A DNA stretch of 64,000 nucleotides from NCBI GenBank assembly GCA_020055645.1, contig CM034549.1, forward strand, positions 33,751,930 through 33,815,929. The letters are read 5' to 3'. This document shows, in pieces, positions 3,001-64,000 of this stretch. Made by a program: the position numbers and the translations under genes. The notes beneath the pieces were generated by a model. That model saw nothing but the letters and a program-made list of their open reading frames with translations, did not search any database and had not been told where the DNA came from. Position 1 is the first letter of the stretch. Each line of letters starts with the position of its first letter. Origin of the DNA: Tomocerus qinae (taxonomy: Eukaryota; Arthropoda; Collembola; Entomobryomorpha; Tomoceridae).

Positions 3001-6000
3001 ATGTGATTAAACTCTCCATCGGGCAGTGTGTTCACCATAAAAACTTTTGCATTATGTCATTTTGTGTGGATAAGGGAATAGCAAAAAGCATTTTTTTCTT
3101 ATTCTACATTCTCTTCCTTCCTTCCTTCCTTCTTTCCAAGCAAGCGAGTGGTTTGGCAGTAGTCCAGAGAAGGCAAGAACAGGAAGTAAAGTGTACACGT
3201 AACGTGCACAGGTCAGACAACTATTACACCACAATCAGTCGATGAGGTACCCCGACCGATGTGAAATGTATATCACAAGTAGATATAAGTAGAGTACAGA
3301 GTACATGCATATAATATTACAGTTTGCACGAGTGAAGCATGCACTGCTAATTAATAAATAGATGGAAAGTATTGGAAAGTGTGCGTCTTAACTACCGAAA
3401 GATATTGAGTATCACTCCAATAAATTGAGGAATTCCCCCTTTCACATTTACTACACTTTCATTTCATTTTTACAACAACGCCAAGTCCACACACTCAAAC
3501 AATTCCTACTATAGGTACTCGATTCTCTATCAATATCAATCACCCACCCCCACCCCAGCCCAACACAATAGTAATTAATAATAATATAATATCGTCAGAG
3601 AGCGGGAATGATAGTCGCCCCCGAGATTTTGAGTTATTAAGTGGGGAAATATTGGCGGGGTGAAATGGTCCGCCAAATTGTATTGTTAGGTTGTGTAGAA
3701 TATAAATAGGTATGGAGATAATTGAGATAGTTAGTTCTGGTTTAAATGTACTAGAGAAGAAGGATGCGATCACTTGCTTTGGGTACATTAACCTTGTAAA
3801 CTACTCTGCACTCATTCAAAGGACTTCCTTTATCGAGGTTAAGATTAAGACGTGTATTGCTAGCTCCTATCCATCTCCTCCTGCCTAGATGTATTTCATG
3901 TCAGTAGTACTATTTACAACCAGAGCATCATCTGTTTCTCAACTACTGATCATTGACCCTTCACATTATATATAGCAATACTTCCTATAATAATATACAT
4001 ATACTGCATATATTCACTCCGTCTCGTTTCTAAATCCATTTTAACCCATTTTTGACTTTGACAAAAATGTCCTAAATTGTTTCATCGGACGCCTATAGAT
4101 TGTATCTCTATGTTTGATCTAGGAATTGTAGTATAATATACTTGTTCTGAAGAACTTGACAATAAAGCTATATGATTTGAATTGTATACTATTGTATGGT
4201 TGAAATATTCGACCAGAAAAAATCTCTTTATATAAGATGGGGGATGTCCGCGTCAGTGACTCCCTTTCAGACATTTCCGTCTCATAACTGATAATCCAGG
4301 GAGTGGATCTAGCAGTTCAGCAGACTCGATTGGAGATAGTAAGGAAGACCCTTAACTACATGCAGAAGTATGAAATGGTGTGTGGGGCATCGGTGGATGA
4401 AGAAAATGAAGATGATGTACATTGCTACAGGAGGAATGGAGGACACAGCTGTATGGGTATAGGGATGGATGACAATAAAGAGTGCATTTAAGTGTGGGCA
4501 TACATCGATAATATAGTGGAGTGAACGGTCGGGGGAGGAGACGGAAGATATCATACCATGCACTCCGGAGAATTCCTCCCACTTCCAGACCTTCTTCCTG
4601 GAAGTTGCAATAAGGGTATCTCGTGTCACTCTAAAGGGCTCAATCTGAGAACAAAACTGAAAATCTATATTTTCTTGGAGCAATTGGACGATAAAAAGAT
4701 GGACAGGAGAAAGCTATAAATCAAACTTCCGCTACTTGATTTATAACCTAATCATTCACTTATGTGTACTCAGAAGTGTCATGCAAACACACCTATATAT
4801 ACTATAACAGATATAGTAGTAATGAGTAATAAATCTCCACTCCAGATTAATCAGAATGACTTAAAATTTCTGTTACCAATACAGATTAATAATGGATTTA
4901 ACATTTATTTATTAGTCATACATATCGAATGCACAAGCCAAATGCCGAAACTAAATTTATACGTCTATCTAAAGAAATCTTTGTATCCCTTTAGTATTTC
5001 CACGCTACCTACCACAAACGGAAGTTCTTAAGAACCACATGACAGTTGTTTGCTTGTAATCCATCTTTGGTGAATTAATTATAACTACTTTCACTAACTA
5101 GTAACTATATACTCCGCTAAATGAAGGATGATTAGGATGTGTGTGGAGTGAGTACTCCATTATAAAGATAAGGTTATCTGTCAAAAGCGGAGATAGGATT
5201 CTATTAAATAAGACTATCTCTCTCCAACTCTTCCCCCACACATGCTACACATTGCTCAATAATACAAACTGACACAATCCAGTTAATATTATAGGGATGC
5301 AAATAACTATAGATCATTCATCCTTCCTCCCTTCCTCACCACTGAGCTACGTTATCTCGGATCTATTTAGAACCATTTATTAATTACATTTAGCTATAAT
5401 ATTATGATTCAATAGAAATCTATAATCTATCTATACTATTATTGTAAGACTTCCCTAGACCGAAAGATGTGTTGAACCGAATCTTTCCATCATGATTATA
5501 AATTAGTAGTAGTAGAACTGTGCTGGTTATATGTGATGTTGTAGTTTGTGCACTATTTTGTGATAATGTCTTTGAAACATCGCATATCCTTCAAGAAGAT
5601 AGAATTCAGGCAGTCACCGCGTGTATCAACAACCCCGTCTCTATCTACGAATGTTGGTATTAAGTATTATCTCATCATGGGGAGAGATTTAGCTCTTCAC
5701 TTTATGGAGTATTAATTAATACCTTAGTTAGCCAATAATGTTATGCAGTGAGATGAAATTGCAGAGTGTGTGGCAGAAGGTAGTCTTTGAGTGTGGAAGA
5801 GATAGTAAGTATGATGGGGATGAATGTCAGAGATCTGAGCTACTTATAAATGTAAAGACACTTGAAGTGACAACAACTACGCAACTTGCCACTGCTAAAC
5901 TAATTCCTTCGAATAAGTCATTTCGAATATCAGTAGTGGCAGCATAAGGGAGGGAGAGAGGGAGGGGGATTATGGCTGGGGATCAGTTCACTGACTGAAC

Positions 6001-25891: not shown

Positions 25892-26694
25892 AAAACCTAC
25901 GGCAAGCCGTAACAGAAGCTCGCCTGAGTGAAGGGGACCATGTACACATTTTTGGTGGAATAATAATAGATTTATTTTGATTAGTACAATGTCATTCAAA
26001 CTAGATCAATATTTATAATAGAAAATCAAAATAGATTAATATTGACTATTAAAATCAACAGAAAATCAAAATAGATTAATATTGACTATTGAAATCAACG
26101 GAAAATCAAAATAGATTAATATTGACTATTAAAATCAACAGAAAATCAAAATAGAATAATATTGACTATTAAAATCAACAGAAAATCAAAATAGAATAAT
26201 ATTGACTATTAAAATCAACAGAAAATCAAAATAGATAATTGTTGACTATGAAAATCAACAGAAATTCGATTCGAAAAATGTAAATTTGACTACCAATTTG
26301 CATATAAATGCGAAATAGATTTATTTCCGTCCTGTAATAGATATTTTTTATGATTTTATTTACTTTATTATCAAATCTTAAATTTGGTCGAAGCGGCATT
26401 AAATATTTTATACTATCATGCTAACAATTCATAGGAAGCACAATTGAACTTTTAATGTCCATTTAATGCCATATTTTCATTTTGACAATCAAAATGAAGA
26501 CAAAGTGAGCGCGCGTCATCTCAGCAACCTATGGACCAATGTGGCCCATTTTCAATAGGCTTTGTCCTATGGGCATAGGCAATGTTTTTGACAAGTTTGA
26601 TCAAAATCGGTCAATGCGTTCGAAAGTTATCGTGGTAACAGACGAACGGACGGACGGACTGTGCGATTCTATAAGCTGCCTTATCAGGCGAGCT
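25892..26694 (+). mobile_element. Repeat family ABC, copy A
   Basis: The copy starts with AAAACCTACGGCAAGCCGTA and AGCTCGCCTGA, and ends with ACGGACGGACGG then TCAGGCGAGCT, the inverse of the left AGCTCGCCTGA. The middle is a tandem array of about six 40-bp units (26021-26270) with AAAATCAAAATAGATTAATA cores. The right third (TCAGCAACCTATGGACC and onwards) is shared with copies B and C. No coding capacity. Class is undetermined. Confidence 0.8.
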
Positions 26695-33127: not shown

Positions 33128-33871
33128 CTAACCGTCAAATACATGGTCATGGATTTGGAAATAAAAATAAACCCTAAATACTTTACGGTTTGGGATGGAG
33201 TTAAATCTGATTTTTCATTATTAATTAACAATCCCAGCTGCTGATAAAAAAAGGAGTTTTAGTAGATTTGATTGGCAACTAGCATAACTAGTACCGAACA
33301 ACAAACTATCATCTAAATAAAAAGCAGATAGATTTCCTCTAGCTCTAAGATAACCTAAGACAGATCTTATTACTTTTGTAAAATCCATCGGTGCTATATT
33401 AAGTCCGAACGACAAACATGTGTATTGATAAATTTTTCCCAACCATTCAAACCTCAAATATTTCTAAGATTGGTTAGCTATAGGTATTAAATGGTATGCG
33501 TCTGCGTCCTTTTGATCAATTATGGCCATGAAACAATTTCTTTCTATTAAATGACAAACCGTTCGATAGTCTTCCATTTTAAAATGGGGGCAATCAATGT
33601 GTTCATTTAAACGTTTTAAATTAATTACTAACCGAGAGCCACCATCTGGTTTCGGAAGAAGAAAAATTGGGGACAAAAACTCATCTTTGCAATGCTTAAC
33701 TAATATTACTGCAAATATTTCCACTAACTTTTTAATTGCTACATTAATTTTTTCTGTCTCTAACTCATTAAACTCAATCCCCTTAGGCAGTGAACTTTGT
33801 TCAGGTTTAGTTTTAAACGGAATTAAATAACCAGAAATACAACTTAGCACCCAAGGATCACTTGTTATCAT
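33128..33871 (-). pseudogene. DIRS-like reverse transcriptase, broken
   Basis: Minus strand. The N-terminal part has LSPIFLLPKPDGGSRLVINL and HFKMED, typical of DIRS/Ngaro reverse transcriptases. The middle carries the catalytic YLDD box (FYLDDSLLFG), and the C-terminal part has SDLTPSQTVKYLGF, the palm-end motif of this group. An in-frame stop separates the first two blocks (about 33464). A frameshift in a T run near 33240 puts the last block in another frame. RNase H and any methylase domain are absent, so the element is deleted as well as mutated. Upstream on the same strand is the gag-like frame at 34018-34566. Assignment to DIRS rather than gypsy rests on these motifs plus the adjacent tyrosine recombinase. 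Confidence 0.85.
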
Positions 33872-40993: not shown

Positions 40994-41874
40994 AAAAACC
41001 TACAGCAAGCCGTAACAGAAGCTCGCCTGAGTAAAGGTTACCGCATACACATTTTGGTAGACGAAATGTACTCACACGTACTACAAAGCCGAGCGCACGG
41101 ATTTTTTTCAAATTTTCAGAATTGAGTCTTTATATATATGTAGCTACGACGTTTTAAAAATTAAGACATTGATATTATAAGGATATTTGAAAACTGACGT
41201 GATCTTTAACATATACAATTATAACGCACCCAAAACAAAGCTATATATTTTGAAAAATCGACATAAAATCACAATTGATTAACGTTAACTATGAAAATCA
41301 ACAGAAAATCAAAATTAATTGATGTTGACTATGAAAATCAACAGAAATTCAAATTTGATTATTGTTGACTATGAAAATCAGATTGATTATGACATTATGA
41401 GTATTAAAATCTACAGAAAATTAAAATCGGTTAATAATGACTGTCAAAATTAAAAGGAAATCGAAACATGGAAATTTGACTATAAAATTTAATATAAATC
41501 CAAGATTATCCATCGTCTTATAATTTTATCCGATTTTATTTGCTTTATTATAAAGTTATGAATTCGGTAGAAGCGGAGTAAAATATTTTATACTATCACG
41601 CTAACAATTTATAGGAAACCCAATTGAACTGTTTTAATGCCCATTTTCAATTTTGACTATCAAAATGAAGACAAAGTGAGCGCGCCGTGTCTCAGCAACC
41701 TATGGACCTATTTACCCCAAAATTAATATGGATCGTCAGTGGTCCATAAGCATTGTTTTTGCTAACTTTGGTCAACTTCCGACTTTGCGTTCCAAAGTTA
41801 TCGTGGGTAAGGACGGACGGACGTACGGACGGACAGACTGTGCGATTCTATTAGCTGTCTTATTCAGGCGAGCT
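40994..41874 (+). mobile_element. Repeat family ABC, copy B
   Basis: Same layout as copy A: AAAACCTACAGCAAGCCGTA, AGCTCGCCTGA, a diverged AAAATCAA tandem array (about 41265-41450), TCAGCAACCTATGGACC, ACGGACGGAC, TCAGGCGAGCT. It ends 62 bp before a TA-flanked element. The 94-codon frame at 40841-41125 across its left end is judged a by-product. Confidence 0.75.
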
Positions 41875-43057: not shown

Positions 43058-44056
43058 AGCTCGCCTGAGGAAGCGAGCTTATAGAACCGCACAGTCTGTC
43101 CGTACGTACGTCCTTACGTCCGTCCGCCTTCTCCACGATAACTTTCGAAAGCAATGACGGATATTGACCAAACTTGGCAAAAACAATTCCTATGGTCCAC
43201 TGACGATCCCAATTAATTATGGGGTAAATCGGTCCATAGGTTGCTGAGACACCGCGCGCTCACTTTGTCTTCATTTTGATAGTCAAAGTGAAAATTTGGC
43301 ATTAAATGGACATTAAAAAGTTCAATGGCGTTTCCTATAAATTGTTATCATAAAACTATAAAACATTTCATTCCTCTTCTACCAAATTTGAGATTTTATA
43401 ATAAAGCAAATTAAACCGGAAAATAACTATTAGACGATGAAAAAAAACCTATTTTAGATTTTTATTGAATTTTATAGTCAAATTTCCATTTTTTAATTTC
43501 CTTTAAATTTTGATAATCAATATTAACCGATTTTAATTTTGTGCAGATTTTAATACTCATAATCAATCAAGATTGAATATAAAATATGTTGATTTTCATA
43601 GTCAACGTTAATCAATTTTGATTTTCTGTTAATATTCATAGTCAACATTAATCAATTTTGATTTTCTATTGATTTTCGTAATCAATATTAATCAATTTTG
43701 ATTATCTGTTGACTTTTATAGCCAACATTAATCAATTTTGATTTTCTGTTGATTATGATAATCGATATCCATCAATTATGATTATCAGTTGAATTTAATG
43801 CTCAATAATAATCAATTTTAATCTTCTGTTGATTTTGATAATCAACATCAATCTATTTTGATTTGCTGGTGATTTTGATAATCAACTTTAATCTATTTTT
43901 ATTTGCTATTGATTTTTATATTGAATTATGAATTATATTAATTTAGTTTGAATTAGTGCTAACTTTAATAATCAAAATAAATTTATTTCTATTATTATTA
44001 CAACCAAAATGTCCCCTTTACTCAAACGAACTTCTGTTACGATTTGCTGTAGGTTT
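43058..44056 (-). mobile_element. Repeat family ABC, copy C (inverted)
   Basis: The reverse-complement counterpart of copies A and B. It starts with the hairpin AGCTCGCCTGAGGAAGCGAGCT and runs through GTCCGTACG and GGTCCATAGGTTGCTGAGA. A long diverged array of AATCAATTTTGATTTTCTGTTGA units follows (about 43500-43930), ending near GATTTGCTGTAGGTTTTT. Its AGCTCGCC-type end at the far side is mutated. No coding capacity. Confidence 0.78.
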
Positions 44057-44984: not shown

Positions 44985-45379
44985 GAGGACGATTAAAATA
45001 ATGATAGCTAATTAAAATAATAGAGTTACTTAAAATGAAGAGGTGAAAATGACGTGAAAATTTAAGATGACAGGAATATTTAAAATAAAGAAATTATTTA
45101 AAATGGCAGGAATGTTTAAAATGGCGAGAATTTTTAAAATGAAGAAATTTTTTAAAATGACGTTTATAGATTTAAAACAACGGGGTTATTTAAAATGAAG
45201 GGATGATTCTAAACGACAAAATTATTTAAAACAACGGGGTTATTTAAAATGACATCTATTTAAAATGTGGGGTCATTTACAATGACCTTTATTTAAAATG
45301 TGGGGTAATTTGCCATGACGTCTATTTAAAATGACGTGTATTTAAAATGACGGGGTCATTTTAATGACGTGTATTTAAA
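44985..45379 (+). repeat. Degenerate forerunner of the 18-bp satellite
   Basis: Irregular AT-rich units built from TTTAAAATGA followed by ACGTGTAT, AGGAAT or CGGGGT precede the exact array. They look like the diverged older units from which the 18-bp satellite was amplified; a short similar stretch (46226-46330) follows it. Confidence 0.75.
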
Positions 45380-46225
45380 ATGACGGGGTCATTTGCAATG
45401 ACGGGGTCATTTGCAATGACGGGGTCATTTGCAATGACGGGGTCATTTGCAATGACGGGGTCATTTGCAATGACGGGGTCATTTGCAATGACGGGGTCAT
45501 TTGCAATGACGGGGTCATTTGCAATGACGGGGTCATTTGCAATGACGGGGTCATTTGCAATGACGGGGTCATTTGCAATGACGGGGTCATTTGCAATGAC
45601 GGGGTCATTTGCAATGACGGGGTCATTTGCAATGACGGGGTCATTTGCAATGACGGGGTCATTTGCAATGACGGGGTCATTTGCAATGACGGGGTCATTT
45701 GCAATGACGGGGTCATTTGCAATGACGGGGTCATTTGCAATGACGGGGTCATTTGCAATGACGGGGTCATTTGCAATGACGGGGTCATTTGCAATGACGG
45801 GGTCATTTGCAATGACGGGGTCATTTGCAATGACGGGGTCATTTGCAATGACGGGGTCATTTGCAATGACGGGGTCATTTGCAATGACGGGGTCATTTGC
45901 AATGACGGGGTCATTTGCAATGACGGGGTCATTTGCAATGACGGGGTCATTTGCAATGACGGGGTCATTTGCAATGACGGGGTCATTTGCAATGACGGGG
46001 TCATTTGCAATGACGGGGTCATTTGCAATGACGGGGTCATTTGCAATGACGGGGTCATTTGCAATGACGGGGTCATTTGCAATGACGGGGTCATTTGCAA
46101 TGACGGGGTCATTTGCAATGACGGGGTCATTTGCAATGACGGGGTCATTTGCAATGACGGGGTCATTTGCAATGACGGGGTCATTTGCAATGACGGGGTC
46201 ATTTGCAATGACGGGGTCATTTGCA
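45380..46225. repeat. Exact 18-bp satellite, 47 units
   Basis: The unit GACGGGGTCATTTGCAAT repeats 47 times without visible change. Each unit is a perfect hairpin, AATGAC-GGG-GTCATT, plus TGC. Because 18 is divisible by 3 and no stop occurs, both strands are open for over 280 codons (MTGSFA repeats on plus, QMTPSL on minus). These frames have no start context or flanking gene and should not be annotated as proteins. Confidence 0.97.
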
Positions 46226-46330
46226 ATGACGTCTATTTACAATGATGGGGTTATGTAAAATGACGTATATTTACAATGATGTGGTAATGTAAAATGACGC
46301 GGGGTGATGTAAATTGACGAGGGGATTTAA

Positions 46331-58314: not shown

Positions 58315-59319
58315 ACAATACCTCCATTCAAGATCTTGACCTCCATTTCTAACTTCCGCCAGTATAAGGCAGTTCCTTTATATACTAACTACCTTCGCCT
58401 GTAGTGAAAATATTTGCTTCTATTTAGGTAACATTTAATTTAACTTTATTCAAGTGGCCCGATTGACAGTCTACAATTTGTTCAAAGCTACAATTTATTG
58501 CACAAATTTTTATGCTTATGATAGTCTATGGGCTGACAAGTAAAAATCCCTGTTTAACACAGGCCTTACGGGATTTAACACAGATCAGACCTCAACCATT
58601 ATAGTCACTACTAGTACTAGTGAACCCAGCTAAGGGGCAAATCTAGCACTCAAGAGAAATTCAGTAGGCCACCCATCACAGTAATAAAAACAATTTCGAA
58701 AACACCTCATTAGGTAAATACAAAGTATATTTAAATTAATATACTTTTGCTATCCACAGTGTTTGGTGAAATTAGCTGCAGCCCCAACTTCCTGATAAAA
58801 AGGAATTTCCTACACCAGAATATTAACTGTAGATCGTAGCATCAAATTCAGAATGAAAAATCCCACAATGTCACCAAAAAGCTCCCTTTTAAAATCAAAA
58901 AATGGGATTCTCCCTGGGATTTTGGAAATACGTACAAACTCTATGAGTACAACTTACGAATAAATATTTTTGAAGAACAAATAGTTAGTTACCCAGTACT
59001 GTTATTTAACTCTACAAAAAAGTGCCAACTGCCAAAGGAATCAAGAGGGTAGTAAAAAAGTAAACCCAGTACTAAAAGTTTCAAATAAGTTTGTCGATAT
59101 AACAGAACCAATTTGGATTAGAAATTTTGAAATACTATTTACGATTACAAAATACACGTTACGATCTTTACGAAATGTCCCCTATTCGCCAATCATTTCC
59201 ATTCAATCACGAATCACCACCATTCAACCTTACTTATTATTGTTTTGATGATACAACGTTTACAATAATATGAAACGACTCTTTTCGGTTGTTTAGAGGA
59301 ATAAATTAATGTTTTCAAC
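58315..59319. other. Non-coding spacer
   Basis: No gene or repeat recognised. Confidence 0.5.
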
Positions 59320-59385
59320 AATGTACCCCATCGCACAGCTCCATGCACTAAATTTAGCACATGAAGGTATGCGTTGGGGTACATT
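59320..59385 (+). ncRNA. 66-nt imperfect hairpin, microRNA-precursor-like shape
   Basis: Arms starting AATGTACCCCA and ending TGGGGTACATT pair over about 27 positions, roughly 22 of them matched with scattered single mismatches. An AT-rich terminal loop of about a dozen nt closes it. Length, loop and mismatch pattern resemble an animal pre-miRNA, unlike the perfect transposon hairpins elsewhere. No seed family is recognised. It overlaps an 87-codon frame (59309-59572) that I do not recognise. Confidence 0.3.
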
Positions 59386-59598
59386 ATTAAAAACTTCAGT
59401 TGGGCTTGCGCATTTTGCGTTTAAGGAACATACATATATTACATGTGCAGTTGATGGGAGGAGGAGGTACTCAAGTGTGTTGCAGTCAACACTTGCGTTA
59501 CACATGAGGGAGGGGGTTTTGCGTTACGTAGTATATGCAGTTTTCCTAAGCTCTCCTATCAGACAAATATAGATATAGATTCGTAATTTTTTTCAACT

Positions 59599-60244
59599 TG
59601 TAGAGGGCTAATAAGGCTGTGCTATGAGTCATTTTTGGTTTCCTTACTTTTCCATGCTCCTAGAATGATGTGGTGAACGTGCAAGTCGCAACTTGGTGTG
59701 AAGACACTTTTTATTTATGTAACAATAAATATATTACACTTACACACATATTCTAGGTATAAACTACTAACTAACCAGGTAAGTAAGGGTTCAGGTGAGT
59801 ACACAGGTAACTTAATTAGGGCACTAATTAAATTTGGAGAACAGCACCGAAAATTGCGTGCTTCTCCGTCAGGATTCGGAAGTGTACTACTTGCTAGCAA
59901 TTAAGTTTTGGTGCTAGGCAAGTGCAGTTGTGTCACATGACACATTCATACAAACATAGGTAGGTATGGGCAATACAAACTACATGCTATGCTATACTAG
60001 AAATACAAGTAGGTAGGTAGGTTAGACTACACACTATTGTACATACATTTCATATTCATTACATTGCATATTTCATAATACTAGGAAGCCCCGTACTAAG
60101 GGGTTTACACACTTAGCCTAGTACATCCATGCTACCATCCATGCATAAGGTCTACGCTCAAGAGGAGATTTCGAGCTAACGCCAAGCGACCGTCCGTTCC
60201 GTCGCTTCCATGGGGCTCATGAAAGGAGGTAGCAGGAGGCCTTT

Positions 60245-60327
<83 letters not shown>

Positions 60328-60379
60328 ACTGTCCCTCTCTAGTGCTTATACTAGAGGAGAGCCTATGCAGGCGTCTCCA
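59599..60379 (-). mobile_element. 3' LTR of a non-autonomous LTR retrotransposon
   Basis: Matches the sequence from 63588 to the window edge over 413 bp with two differences (59601/63590 and 59967/63956). Read on the minus strand, the LTR ends ...CTCTnCA at 59599. Its right limit is inferred: TG opposite 60378-60379 directly follows a purine run, giving an LTR of about 781 bp, of which only the first 413 bp can be verified here. An AATAAA signal (minus strand, 59710-59715) lies at the expected R/U5 side. A short frame inside (59698-59904) repeats in both LTRs and is not a gene. Confidence 0.85.
60245..60336 (+). rRNA. 92-nt 28S rRNA segment spanning the R2/I-PpoI site, inside the LTR element
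   Basis: From GGGAGTAACTATGACTCTCT to CCCACTGTCCCT the sequence agrees base for base with the conserved animal 28S core as I know it, including CTCTTAAGGTAGCCAAATGC. The R2 insertion point falls between 60269 and 60270. Similarity stops abruptly at both sides, where canonical 28S would continue differently. It is not a functional rRNA gene but a captured fragment, lying antisense to the retrotransposon. It sits between the visible LTR part and the long frame, and falls in U3 if the LTR ends at 60379. The downstream boundary adjoins a CTCTAGT...ACTAGAG hairpin. Confidence 0.93.
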
Positions 60380-60389
60380 TTCTCCCCAC
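60380..60389 (-). other. Probable polypurine tract
   Basis: On the minus strand GTGGGGAGAA directly precedes TGGAGACG, the expected layout of a second-strand primer followed by a TG LTR start. Chosen because no better purine run adjoins a TG between 60011 and 60558. The true LTR edge lies beyond the window in the other copy, so this is inferred. Confidence 0.55.
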
Positions 60390-60557
60390 GTTGAAATGTA
60401 CTATTTCAAACTAGGTAGACTAAGACATACAATATTCAATTCATGATATCTAGCCTAGGGGGAATACATACTTACATAATATTGCATAATATTACATACA
60501 CATACAGACACATGGAGAAACATATACATAAACACATTATGCTTGACACTTGTAGCA

Positions 60558-63242
60558 CTATTGCACTTGTAGCGTGTTTTCCACATGCGTTGAATCTTCT
60601 CTGAAGAGTTGCAGGTTGCGTTGAGGAGCAGGATGCGTAGGTACGGCTGTCCAGTCCTTCATCATTAGTGGTGCGGCTGAGGCACCAATACACAATTCAT
60701 GTCCATTGCACTGTAATTTAAACTTACGTGCAACTGGTGTAGCGGCGAGATTCCCGTAGTTCCTTCGTGGAGACGTTGAGAGCATCTGCTGTACCTGTAG
60801 TTGCTTTCCAGTTGACGTAGCTGTGTAGTGCAGGAGTAGTGATGCGACGATCGGCGAGTGCGATGTCCATCCAATCCATTCGTCCCGCGAAGAGATGCGG
60901 GTGATCGCTGAAGAGCGTTGAGTGTCTGTGCAGCTAGGCTGTGTGTGCACAGACGTAGTAGGCCTGTCCGGCCGTAGTAACGAGGAGCAGCTCACTTGCG
61001 ACGTGCAGTCCGTAGTGATGCTCTCGTTCGACAAATCCTTCCGTAAAGCTGCTGCATGTACATTTAGTTGTTGCAGTTGGATGGGGATGGCGAGCGGAGA
61101 AAGTGGCGGAGGCAGCCAGGCAGTTCCTGTAGAGTCCATCCATCCGTAGCTACTTCGTAGACGGTTCCTGTAGGCTGCGTGCTTGCAGCGCAGTTGTGCT
61201 TGACAAGTTGTAGCACAAAAGTTCATTTCATTTATTATGCTATGCACGTACGGTTCATAGCATTTCACTTGTACGTGCACTTGGACTGTAGAGTCCCTAA
61301 ACAAAGTGGCGTGAGTGAAATTCATCGTAGAGATGGATTCGTGTAGCTTGTGCAAAGCTACATACCGTGCAGGTGTAGGCTCCATCGATGTGACTTCGTA
61401 GAGAAGTCCGTGTGCACTGTCTTCGTGGCTAGGTAGCAGAAGTTTGTGCGTTGATTCCATTTCATGCATGTAGAATGTGTACATAGAAGCACTATACACA
61501 ATTTGCCGTTCTGGCGTAAGTCGTCGAATGTCTTGCTTGTATTGCATTGCAAGCTGCTTTCGTGCACTTATAGCAGGTCGCGCAGTTGACTTGTATCTAA
61601 GTCGAGTAGCACTTTCGTCAATTTGTTCTTCGTACAATGCAGGCGATGAGTACGTAGTACTTTCCATATCTTCCACGTCGCTGCCTATCCGTTGCGTAGC
61701 GAGTGGGATGAGATGCGTCGATTTCATCGTACAAGGATTTGCTTGTAGAGGCCCAACGAGATACTTCCTTGTGGCTGAAGGACTTCTGTCGGGTGGCTTC
61801 TTTTCCTTGTCCAGGACTAGTTGCTGGACGGATGCAGAGTTGGGTGCTGTGCGAGCACCAAGAGTTGAGATGAAACTCGTGTAGGCATATAAAGGACGCA
61901 CTAACGAGGTCTGACTCACACTTCGTTCATTTTCAATGCAGTGGTACGCTTGTACCTTGTGTGCGTTAGTGCCTACATGGGCACATGTAGGACGTACTAA
62001 AGAGGTTTGCTGTTCATGTAGTGTAATGCTCTTACAGAAGGGCATGTACACTTTGTGCGAGGCGATACTGGCTGCAGTAACCGAGTAGTCGAACGCACAT
62101 TCACTAATTTGCACTGTAGAGTGCACAGAGTTGTCTTGCTGCAGAAGACAAACGCAAACAAATTCACTTGAGTGCACTATCGAGTGCACAGAACAGTCTT
62201 GCACATGAAGACTTGCAATAACACTTATAAGTGGCGAGATTCTAGACGTAGAATCTGCCGTTGGGTCTGACACTGTGCGTGGCTGCACATAGTGTGTAGA
62301 CCGCTTGAGTGCTGCGGGCTGCAGCGAGTCGGACAAAGTTCCATTTGTCGATGCGTGCGTCGGCACGGACATATGCTGGTGAGAAATGAGTGTAAAGCAT
62401 TTACTCACCAAAAGTTCACGTTCGATTTGAAGCGTAAGTTCCTGCTTCTGCTTCTTAGAGTGTGAGGAGTTGTCTTGTAGCTGAAGACGAACAATTGCAC
62501 TTTCACTTGGCATGACTCTATACATAGAGTATGCAGGTGCGTCTGAAGCTACGCGTCGTTCACTGACGGTAGTAGACGACTTTACATCATGTAGATGTGG
62601 AGACTCGTGCAGAGTTCCACTTAACAGTTCGTGCTTCGGCACGGGTGCATGTGCAATGCTAGAGGCTGTGAGAGTTATACTCACCAAAGTGGATGTTCCA
62701 TCGGATATTTCTGCGGCTCGTCTTGACTCCTTCGAATGTTCCGACTGGATGTTCCTAGGGTTTTCTTTCTTGTTCAGTCTTGAGGACGCACTATGGGATG
62801 TTTCTGTGGACGTTCCGTCTGAAGACTCCGTTGAATGTTCCGCTGGGCTGCTCCTGCAAGGTAAATGAGTGGATGCTCCGATGGACGACCCGAGTGGATG
62901 TTGCGTGGGATGTTCGTTCGCGATGTTCCCGTACATGTTCCGTGTGGGTTCTACTTCCATGGGCTTTCCTTTGCTTTGTTCAATGCTGATAGCTAGCTTG
63001 TCTAGTCTATCATGTAGGGCGATGTAGTGAGGTTCTTCTGCCTCATACTCTTCGTCCGTTGTAGCGAGGTTGCTACACTGCTGCAGTAGGCTACTGCATG
63101 TGTCCCGCAGGATGTCTACTTCTTCTACTAGGTGGCGCTGGTCGGTTGACAGGCCATGCGTAGGGTCGTACGCAATAAAGACGTTTTCTAACCTAGCGAT
63201 GCTTGTGTAAAGCGTAGTCCTATCCTGTCTAACGGCATCCAT
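60558..63242 (-). CDS. 894-residue protein of the LTR element, gag-like N-terminus
   Basis: The only long frame of the element, uninterrupted and therefore young. Residues 1-95 look helical and acidic (LVEEVDILRDTCSSLLQQ, then TDEEYEAEEPHYIALHDRL) and recall the N-terminal gag region of BEL/Pao elements; this is a weak resemblance. Residues 130-890 are rich in Ser, Thr, His and Gln and contain internal duplications: blocks at about 199-262 and 291-354 share GTL, VSD or VASD, and QD(N/C)S-HS landmarks; EHS-ES and DGTST recur near 135-185; QTSLVRP occurs twice. No CCHC knuckle, protease, YxDD reverse transcriptase, RNase H or integrase motif was found, so the element must depend on another for copying. 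The leader from the primer site to the start is about 325 nt. It could be a real gag-like protein or a maintained frame without known role. Confidence 0.6.
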   Translation of the reverse strand: MDAVRQDRTTLYTSIARLENVFIAYDPTHGLSTDQRHLVEEVDILRDTCSSLLQQCSNLATTDEEYEAEEPHYIALHDRLDKLAISIEQSKGKPMEVEPTRNMYGNIANEHPTQHPLGSSIGASTHLPCRSSPAEHSTESSDGTSTETSHSASSRLNKKENPRNIQSEHSKESRRAAEISDGTSTLVSITLTASSIAHAPVPKHELLSGTLHESPHLHDVKSSTTVSERRVASDAPAYSMYRVMPSESAIVRLQLQDNSSHSKKQKQELTLQIERELLVSKCFTLISHQHMSVPTHASTNGTLSDSLQPAALKRSTHYVQPRTVSDPTADSTSRISPLISVIASLHVQDCSVHSIVHSSEFVCVCLLQQDNSVHSTVQISECAFDYSVTAASIASHKVYMPFCKSITLHEQQTSLVRPTCAHVGTNAHKVQAYHCIENERSVSQTSLVRPLYAYTSFISTLGARTAPNSASVQQLVLDKEKKPPDRSPSATRKYLVGPLQANPCTMKSTHLIPLATQRIGSDVEDMESTTYSSPALYEEQIDESATRLRYKSTARPAISARKQLAMQYKQDIRRLTPERQIVYSASMYTFYMHEMESTHKLLLPSHEDSAHGLLYEVTSMEPTPARYVALHKLHESISTMNFTHATLFRDSTVQVHVQVKCYEPYVHSIINEMNFCATTCQAQLRCKHAAYRNRLRSSYGWMDSTGTAWLPPPLSPLAIPIQLQQLNVHAAALRKDLSNESITTDCTSQVSCSSLLRPDRPTTSVHTQPSCTDTQRSSAITRISSRDEWIGWTSHSPIVASLLLHYTATSTGKQLQVQQMLSTSPRRNYGNLAATPVARKFKLQCNGHELCIGASAAPLMMKDWTAVPTHPAPQRNLQLFREDSTHVENTLQVQ

Positions 63243-63567
63243 TGCTTGCTACTGAGTGATGGAGGGAGACAAGGATATCTTTGACTTACTGGGGTGATGT
63301 GCGATGAGACGTGATGTCATGCAGGGATCCAATCTTCGTGTCTTGCAAGTCGACTCCAGGAGTGGCTTGAGACGGGGAGCGATGAGACTGAAGCTTCGGC
63401 TTCAGTTCGTAGCACAAAGAAACTAATACAAAATGGACGTTCTGTCCGCTTACTTCTGTCGATGATGATCGATGAAGCGATGACGTCATAGCCACAGTAT
63501 CAGTTTCCCGTAACTGATGACGATAACTAATTATTGCACTAATGCTTAATTAATGTTAGTTACCGTA

Positions 63568-63585
63568 ATCCGGCTCGAAGGACCA
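63568..63585 (-). other. Primer binding site, tRNA-Tyr
   Basis: On the minus strand TGGTCCTTCGAGCCGGAT follows the LTR end after 2 nt. Its complement is exactly the 3' end of animal tRNA-Tyr including CCA, as known from metazoan tRNA-Tyr acceptor and T arms. This fixes the element's orientation and LTR edge. It is not itself a tRNA gene because nothing else of the tRNA is present. Confidence 0.92.
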
Positions 63586-63587
63586 AA

Positions 63588-64000
63588 TGGAGAGGGCTAA
63601 TAAGGCTGTGCTATGAGTCATTTTTGGTTTCCTTACTTTTCCATGCTCCTAGAATGATGTGGTGAACGTGCAAGTCGCAACTTGGTGTGAAGACACTTTT
63701 TATTTATGTAACAATAAATATATTACACTTACACACATATTCTAGGTATAAACTACTAACTAACCAGGTAAGTAAGGGTTCAGGTGAGTACACAGGTAAC
63801 TTAATTAGGGCACTAATTAAATTTGGAGAACAGCACCGAAAATTGCGTGCTTCTCCGTCAGGATTCGGAAGTGTACTACTTGCTAGCAATTAAGTTTTGG
63901 TGCTAGGCAAGTGCAGTTGTGTCACATGACACATTCATACAAACATAGGTAGGTAGGGGCAATACAAACTACATGCTATGCTATACTAGAAATACAAGTA
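63588..64000 (-). mobile_element. 5' LTR, truncated by the window edge
   Basis: Counterpart of 59599-60011 with two differences in 413 bp. The rest of the LTR, including the expected second copy of the 28S segment, lies outside the window. Predicted end near 64368 if the 781-bp LTR model is right. Confidence 0.9.

Follow-up and report, generated by a model that had tools for sequence, protein, structure and literature searches.

The 28S segment

The window (the whole stretch of 64,000 nucleotides that was analysed) carries near its right end a minus-strand LTR element with a segment of 28S rRNA sequence in its 3' LTR (Table 1). The segment is identical to the eukaryotic 28S consensus at 92 of 92 bases (Rfam consensus RF02543, compared by eye); the sequence-only reading, which had described 92 bases of conserved 28S rDNA here, had the coordinates exactly right. 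With cmscan the plus strand matches RF02543 (eukaryotic LSU) with 80.7 bits and E 6e-18. This is the sole Rfam match at or above the gathering threshold across the 64 kb, and in 59500-60500 it is the only match with E up to 1. The Rfam match starts at 60167 or 60163, the two runs differing, and the part to the left of 60245 was rejected as a chance extension. A search for a core pattern of 25 bases, allowing up to 3 mismatches, gave one occurrence in the window and none in 100 shuffles.

Table 1. Coordinates of the 28S segment and of the LTR element that contains it
Feature	Position	Strand	Basis
Possible left target site duplication, CAACT	59594..59598	.	Sequence only; right partner beyond window
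3' LTR, 781 bp, TGGAGA...CTCTACA in element orientation	59599..60379	-	Repeat, terminal inverted repeat and adjacent polypurine tract
Likely polyadenylation signal, AATAAA, LTR nt 665-670	59710..59715	-	Sequence
28S rRNA segment	60245..60336	+ (28S sense; antisense to element)	Rfam and flank comparison
I-PpoI-type recognition sequence, 15 bp, intact	60259..60273	+	Position in segment
Start of U3 (43 nt), forming a pair of back-to-back hairpins	60337..60379	-	Fold z -3.63, 0 of 200 shuffles
Polypurine tract GTGGGGAGAA, directly before TGGAGA of 3' LTR	60380..60389	-	Sequence
894-aa ORF, Ser/Thr-rich	60558..63242	-	896 codons stop to stop
Primer binding site TTTGGTCCTTCGAGCCGGATTA, adjoining 5' LTR	63566..63587	-	Sequence
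5' LTR, visible part ending at window edge	63588..64000	-	Repeat of 59599-60011

The borders of the segment were compared with eight eukaryote-type 28S contigs (L001-L008) from prokaryote assemblies. The ungapped mismatches over the 92 positions are 1, 4, 6, 7, 8, 9, 9 and 39, and the contig with 39 is L006, where a group I intron interrupts the 28S gene at this place. Of the 20 bases on each side of the segment, only 4-5 match to the left and 4-8 to the right. With loose scoring three of the eight contigs align somewhat further, L003 and L005 to 60341 and L004 to 60347. Because the match drops outside 60245-60336, the segment is a piece of 28S without its rRNA flanks, embedded in other DNA. 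According to the consensus structure line, the base at 60245 is the first paired base of the 28S helix that follows a long helix, while the segment breaks off at 60336 within a helix and not at a structural boundary. We take the long helix to be H68 and the helix at the segment start to be H69. A degraded, inverted second copy of the 28S sequence at about 60130-60175, hinted at by the fold, was rejected, since shuffled sequence aligns equally well in 272 of 1000 cases for the neighbouring 140 bp and in 442 of 500 for the whole LTR side.

All eight comparison contigs come from species-representative prokaryote assemblies, and their eukaryote-type 28S is probably contamination. The group I intron match, at L006:5392-5807, lies beside the R2 site of a eukaryote-type 28S in a contig filed as Chloroflexota.

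The LTR element

The element has two near-identical direct LTRs with TG..CA ends, of which the second is visible for 413 bp only. The overlap (59599-60011 against 63588-64000) contains 2 mismatches in 413 bp, or 0.48%. The 3' LTR is taken as 59599-60379 because TGGAGA is the inverted partner of TCTCCA and is adjacent to the polypurine tract. Judged by its LTRs the element is a young LTR retrotransposon, on the minus strand and with the 28S segment antisense to it, as had been suggested before. The earlier reading had left the position in U3 conditional; with a coherent LTR end (TGGAGA..TCTCCA) and the polypurine tract beyond the segment, the segment is placed in the U3 of the 3' LTR. It occupies nt 44-135, corresponding to 6-17% of the LTR length, so that 43 bp of U3 precede it. 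With the likely AATAAA signal at LTR nt 665, the segment would be located in the 3' untranslated end of a transcript. About 200 bp to the left of the LTR, at 59304-59401, there are two adjacent 49-nt inverted arms with 78% complementarity, possibly a small foldback element.

Ribosomal DNA is abundant and collapses in assemblies, and a chimera of an LTR read and rDNA could in principle give a similar structure. The matching LTR end (TGGAGA against TCTCCA), the polypurine tract and the ORF all resume beyond the segment, so that a chimera needs two joins only 92 bp apart, and this explanation is extremely improbable.

The visible part of the 5' LTR stops short of the 28S segment; with the offset of 3989 bp the corresponding position is at about 64234-64325, past the end of the window. 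This would accommodate a private change, in which the segment entered the 3' LTR during or after insertion and the 5' LTR is without it. Such a change includes an rRNA retropseudogene made by a LINE, and LINE-1 does pick up 28S according to the accessible part of PMC13174262. A private change is nevertheless highly unlikely, as the segment is neither directly flanked by a target site duplication nor accompanied by an adjacent poly(A) stretch.

The R2 site

The 15 bp at 60259..60273 correspond to the I-PpoI-type recognition sequence. The expected R2 cut, at 60269/60270, has 25 bp of the segment upstream of it and 67 bp downstream. The R2/I-PpoI site is thus present and intact within the segment, as had been claimed, but the segment is not centred on the cut. 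A junction sequence quoted in a paper on R2 target recognition is consistent with a cut at 60269/60270 (PMC12222951).

According to the same paper, the silkworm element R2Bm reads a motif 22-34 bp upstream of the cut, with contacts at -27, -26, -24, -23 and -22, and the avian R2Tg contacts -25, -24, -23, -21 and -20 (PMC12222951). Off-targets of R2Tg retain positions -25 to -19, among which the T at -20 is strong, and the Myb domain of R2Tg is unresolved in that structure (PMC12222951). The upstream contact surface is described as more extended in A-clade than in D-clade R2 (PMC12180492, accessible part).

The embedded site differs between these two types of contact. All 25 of the positions -25 to -1 match all eight 28S loci, and the cut site and the five named R2Tg bases are kept. 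The -34 to -22 motif read by R2Bm is matched only in part, at 6 of 13 positions in comparison with seven of the eight loci and at 5 of 13 in comparison with the eighth, and of the five bases named for R2Bm, those at -27 and -26 are changed. From these bases we predict the embedded site to be a better target for an R2 of the avian type than for one of the silkworm type. Considering the unresolved Myb domain of R2Tg and the extended contact surface of the A-clade, A-clade contacts beyond -25 may be lost too. As an R2 target the embedded site is partial for R2Bm-type proteins, and the earlier suggestions that every genomic copy and every element transcript would carry the segment are not supported by the one copy seen.

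About 1.4% of the 92-mers in a 28S gene with an assumed length of 3.9 kb hold the R2 cut with 20 bp on each side. The inclusion of the R2 site in the segment is a post hoc hint of something beyond a passive capture.

Folding, divergence and possible function

The first 43 nt of U3, outside the segment, fold more stably than any other stretch of this length in the LTR (738 windows), except for the one shifted by a single base, which has the same energy. The 250-nt start of U3 is also structured (z -3.18, 1 of 200 shuffles). In element orientation the segment by itself is no more stable than its shuffled versions (z -0.49, 56 of 200 shuffles), and the 28S sense strand gives z -1.05 (26 of 200 shuffles). 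The first 300 nt of U3 fold with -102.3 kcal/mol with the segment and -72.8 without it, and the segment alone with -21.5, these energies having no shuffle control. The segment thus adds 29.5 kcal/mol compared with 21.5 alone, meaning that it pairs somewhat with the surrounding LTR.

With 0 changes in 92 bp the 95% upper bound of the divergence is 3.3%. Compared with the LTR divergence of 0.48%, the capture could predate the insertion severalfold without any selection. The complete match of the 92 bp does not count as evidence for selection.

These results bear on the possibility that the antisense 28S sequence is a working module, kept because it is useful in pairing with pre-rRNA, in nucleolar delivery, in hiding from silencing or in recombination with rDNA. 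If true, the 28S sequence would be to this animal element what the 5S module is to Cassandra. The complete identity to the consensus, the location in the structured start of U3 and the retained R2 site agree with a function, and 28S-derived sequence in the 3' UTRs of fish R2 elements has been linked to altered insertion boundaries (PMC5035012, accessible part). However, up to 3.3% divergence is compatible with the identity, so constraint is not implied, and the segment folds poorly by itself and, unlike the 5S module, brings no known promoter. Because of the weak folding of the segment and the lack of a promoter gain, function is kept as a minority reading and is doubtful. The roles in rDNA targeting, as a decoy or in rRNA pairing that had been proposed from the letters of the sequence find no support in the evidence but are possible. 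Also doubtful is the wider proposal that a whole animal LTR family keeps the H69/R2-site region of 28S intact in U3, where the antisense transcript ends would pair with pre-rRNA or rDNA and the copies would be dispersed R2-compatible sites outside rDNA.

The open reading frame and relatives of the element

The length of the 894-aa ORF can be compared with a maximum of 304 codons from stop to stop in 300 shuffles, so the ORF is very likely coding for a protein. It gave no Pfam family with E up to 1, and when it was divided into four pieces and searched with E up to 10, a single sub-threshold match to Sec20 was obtained (0.12). The nine smaller ORFs of the internal region gave four weak, unrelated Pfam matches with E 0.0099-0.33, all under the cut-off. 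No reverse transcriptase was thus found with Pfam in the 894-aa ORF and the nine smaller ORFs, for which reason the element looks non-autonomous and probably relies on mobilisation in trans. A three-helix N-terminus is predicted for residues 1-114 of the ORF (mean pLDDT 73.7), and this model had no match in BFVD at E 0.001, the best being 0.11. The model of the 337 C-terminal residues was unusable (mean pLDDT 31.6). Within the ORF, at 62096-62488, there are imperfect 54-nt repeats in three copies with 63-74% identity to the reference, which suggests that the ORF has grown by internal duplication.

The primer binding site TTTGGTCCTTCGAGCCGGATTA is read as the complement of the 3' end of tRNA-Tyr, which is our assumption. 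This resemblance is the only feature pointing to a possible BEL/Pao origin, the ORFs of the internal region being without Pfam domains of a BEL-type reverse transcriptase, protease or integrase. The BEL/Pao element Achilles of the olive fly has an LTR of similar size (672 bp), TG..CA ends and a primer binding site complementary to tRNA-Tyr, and differs in that its sequenced part is 7.5 kb of a larger element, with no rRNA segment mentioned in the text consulted (PMC4580426, accessible part). Viral contigs scanned with a 37-mer and a 21-mer of 28S, the primer binding site pattern and the junction pattern gave no matches, while the ORF pattern gave nine matches, none of them to a relative. The LTR had no match to phage sequences.

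Other repeats are found further to the left in the window. A degraded retroelement on the minus strand at 33224-33463 has an RVT_1 match with E 6.5e-06, below the curated cut-off, and among the neighbouring frames, which extend to 34569, the adjoining one resembles a DIRS or gypsy reverse transcriptase by eye but has no Pfam match at E 0.1. Three tandem arrays (26020-26264, 41254-41380 and 43507-43920) have a similar, AAAATCAACAGAAAATCAAAATTGATTAATGTTGACTATG-like unit of 40 bp, the third being in opposite orientation by eye. At 45346-46231 the 18-bp unit AATGACGGGGTCATTTGC is present in 49 copies with 98% matches and is open in four frames.

Origin of the segment

The best supported reading, which may well be correct, is that the segment is carried passively, having been acquired by a source copy in a single event and passed on by ordinary LTR replication. 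Passive capture was among the options listed in the sequence-only reading. The favoured route is a switch of the reverse transcriptase onto 28S rRNA. In LTR replication, a plus-strand switch with rRNA as template results in an antisense segment, and a minus-strand switch in a sense segment. The antisense orientation consequently excludes a simple minus-strand switch onto rRNA. Capture of an end cut by R2 was also rejected, because the R2 site lies uncut inside the segment.

In the favoured route a reverse transcriptase supplied in trans would copy the two hairpins at the start of U3 during plus-strand synthesis and then jump to 28S rRNA. Copying of the rRNA would continue until the base of the long helix preceding H69, where the enzyme would jump back to the template of the element. 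The segment is in the 3' LTR and the plus-strand strong-stop piece gives rise to the 5' LTR, so only the late plus-strand extension across the 3' U3 would serve for the switch, and not the strong-stop piece.

Both junctions have features in favour of a switch. One is within 1 nt of the end of a stable hairpin. The other coincides with the start of a 28S helix, whose first base adjoins the final base of the long helix before it. The U3 hairpins and the 28S helix boundary may be natural pausing places. The absence of changes in the 92 bp fits a recent capture without selection. Positions 3,636-4,115 of human 28S probably include the R2 site. It is most often from this interval that the 28S pieces of LINE-1 chimeras originate, and 28S appears as by-catch of retrotransposition in 18 chimeric 28S/LINE-1 insertions (PMC13174262, accessible part). 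Against a switch, a single copy was seen, the entry point in 28S is in the middle of a helix, the late plus-strand step is less usual, and 83% of the 28S pieces in the LINE-1 study are in sense orientation (PMC13174262). The partial pairing of the segment with the surrounding LTR could be used by the functional reading against passive capture in general.

A tentative alternative is capture at the DNA level, in which a break in a genomic LTR took up a piece of chromosomal or extrachromosomal rDNA, and this LTR was then transcribed and copied into both LTRs of its descendants. It requires no special step of reverse transcription, and both orientations are equally expected. The junctions have no duplicated flank, and the best shared 5-mer is not adjacent to them, in line with this alternative. 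For the 5S sequence of Cassandra, transposition, recombination or integration of eccDNA have been proposed (PMC10853983, accessible part). However, joining of DNA does not predict that, along one copying direction, two of the junction features coincide with or adjoin the ends of hairpins or helices. Between the specific events, an rDNA repair patch at a break is nearly as likely as a template switch.

Comparison with known systems

In the literature searched, consisting of titles and the starts of abstracts with few subscription papers, no LTR element with 28S sequence was found. If the segment is a feature of the family, it would to our knowledge be the first 28S module in an LTR. Such a family would allow a direct test of whether a retrotransposon specific for rDNA can also use the same sequence elsewhere in the genome, and of whether silencing or rRNA is affected when a transposon transcript carries antisense rRNA. 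Should it instead be an isolated capture, the segment preserves a clean record of host rRNA sequence entering an LTR element, and it may provide R2 with one more site in that genome.

The nearest precedent is Cassandra of plants, where a segment of an rRNA gene with sharp borders and a core of similar length, about 70 bp, is located in the LTR of a non-autonomous element (PMC10853983, accessible part). The element described here also has a segment of an rRNA gene in its LTR, but it is 28S and not 5S, antisense and without a known promoter, whereas the 5S of Cassandra has an internal promoter (PMC10853983). No 5S internal promoter was detected in 59500-60500, where LSU is the only match with E up to 1. 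The Cassandra module is found within 25-75% of the LTR length and never at the ends, and it is conserved across many Cassandras (PMC10853983), whereas the 28S segment lies closer to the end and is known from one copy.

Two further systems combine 28S sequence with retrotransposons. In seven R2 families, of which five are closely related, a 28S-like part is present in the 3' UTR (PMC5035012, accessible part). They resemble the present element in having 28S-derived sequence near the 3' end of a retrotransposon, and differ in being non-LTR elements that themselves target 28S and in which the 28S-like part has diverged (PMC5035012). The 28S/LINE-1 chimeras, with a median 28S length of 269 nt and a range of 50-482 nt over the 18 loci, are similar in that a 28S fragment is fused to a retrotransposon copy (PMC13174262). 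There the fragment is found at the 5' end of LINE-1, mainly in sense orientation, and not within an LTR; a SINE derived from 28S is cited in the same source (PMC13174262, accessible part). Taken together, the segment is a real and unusual capture of 28S in an LTR, most likely passive. It belongs to a known kind, the rRNA module in an LTR, in a 28S version that is new as far as the literature was searched.
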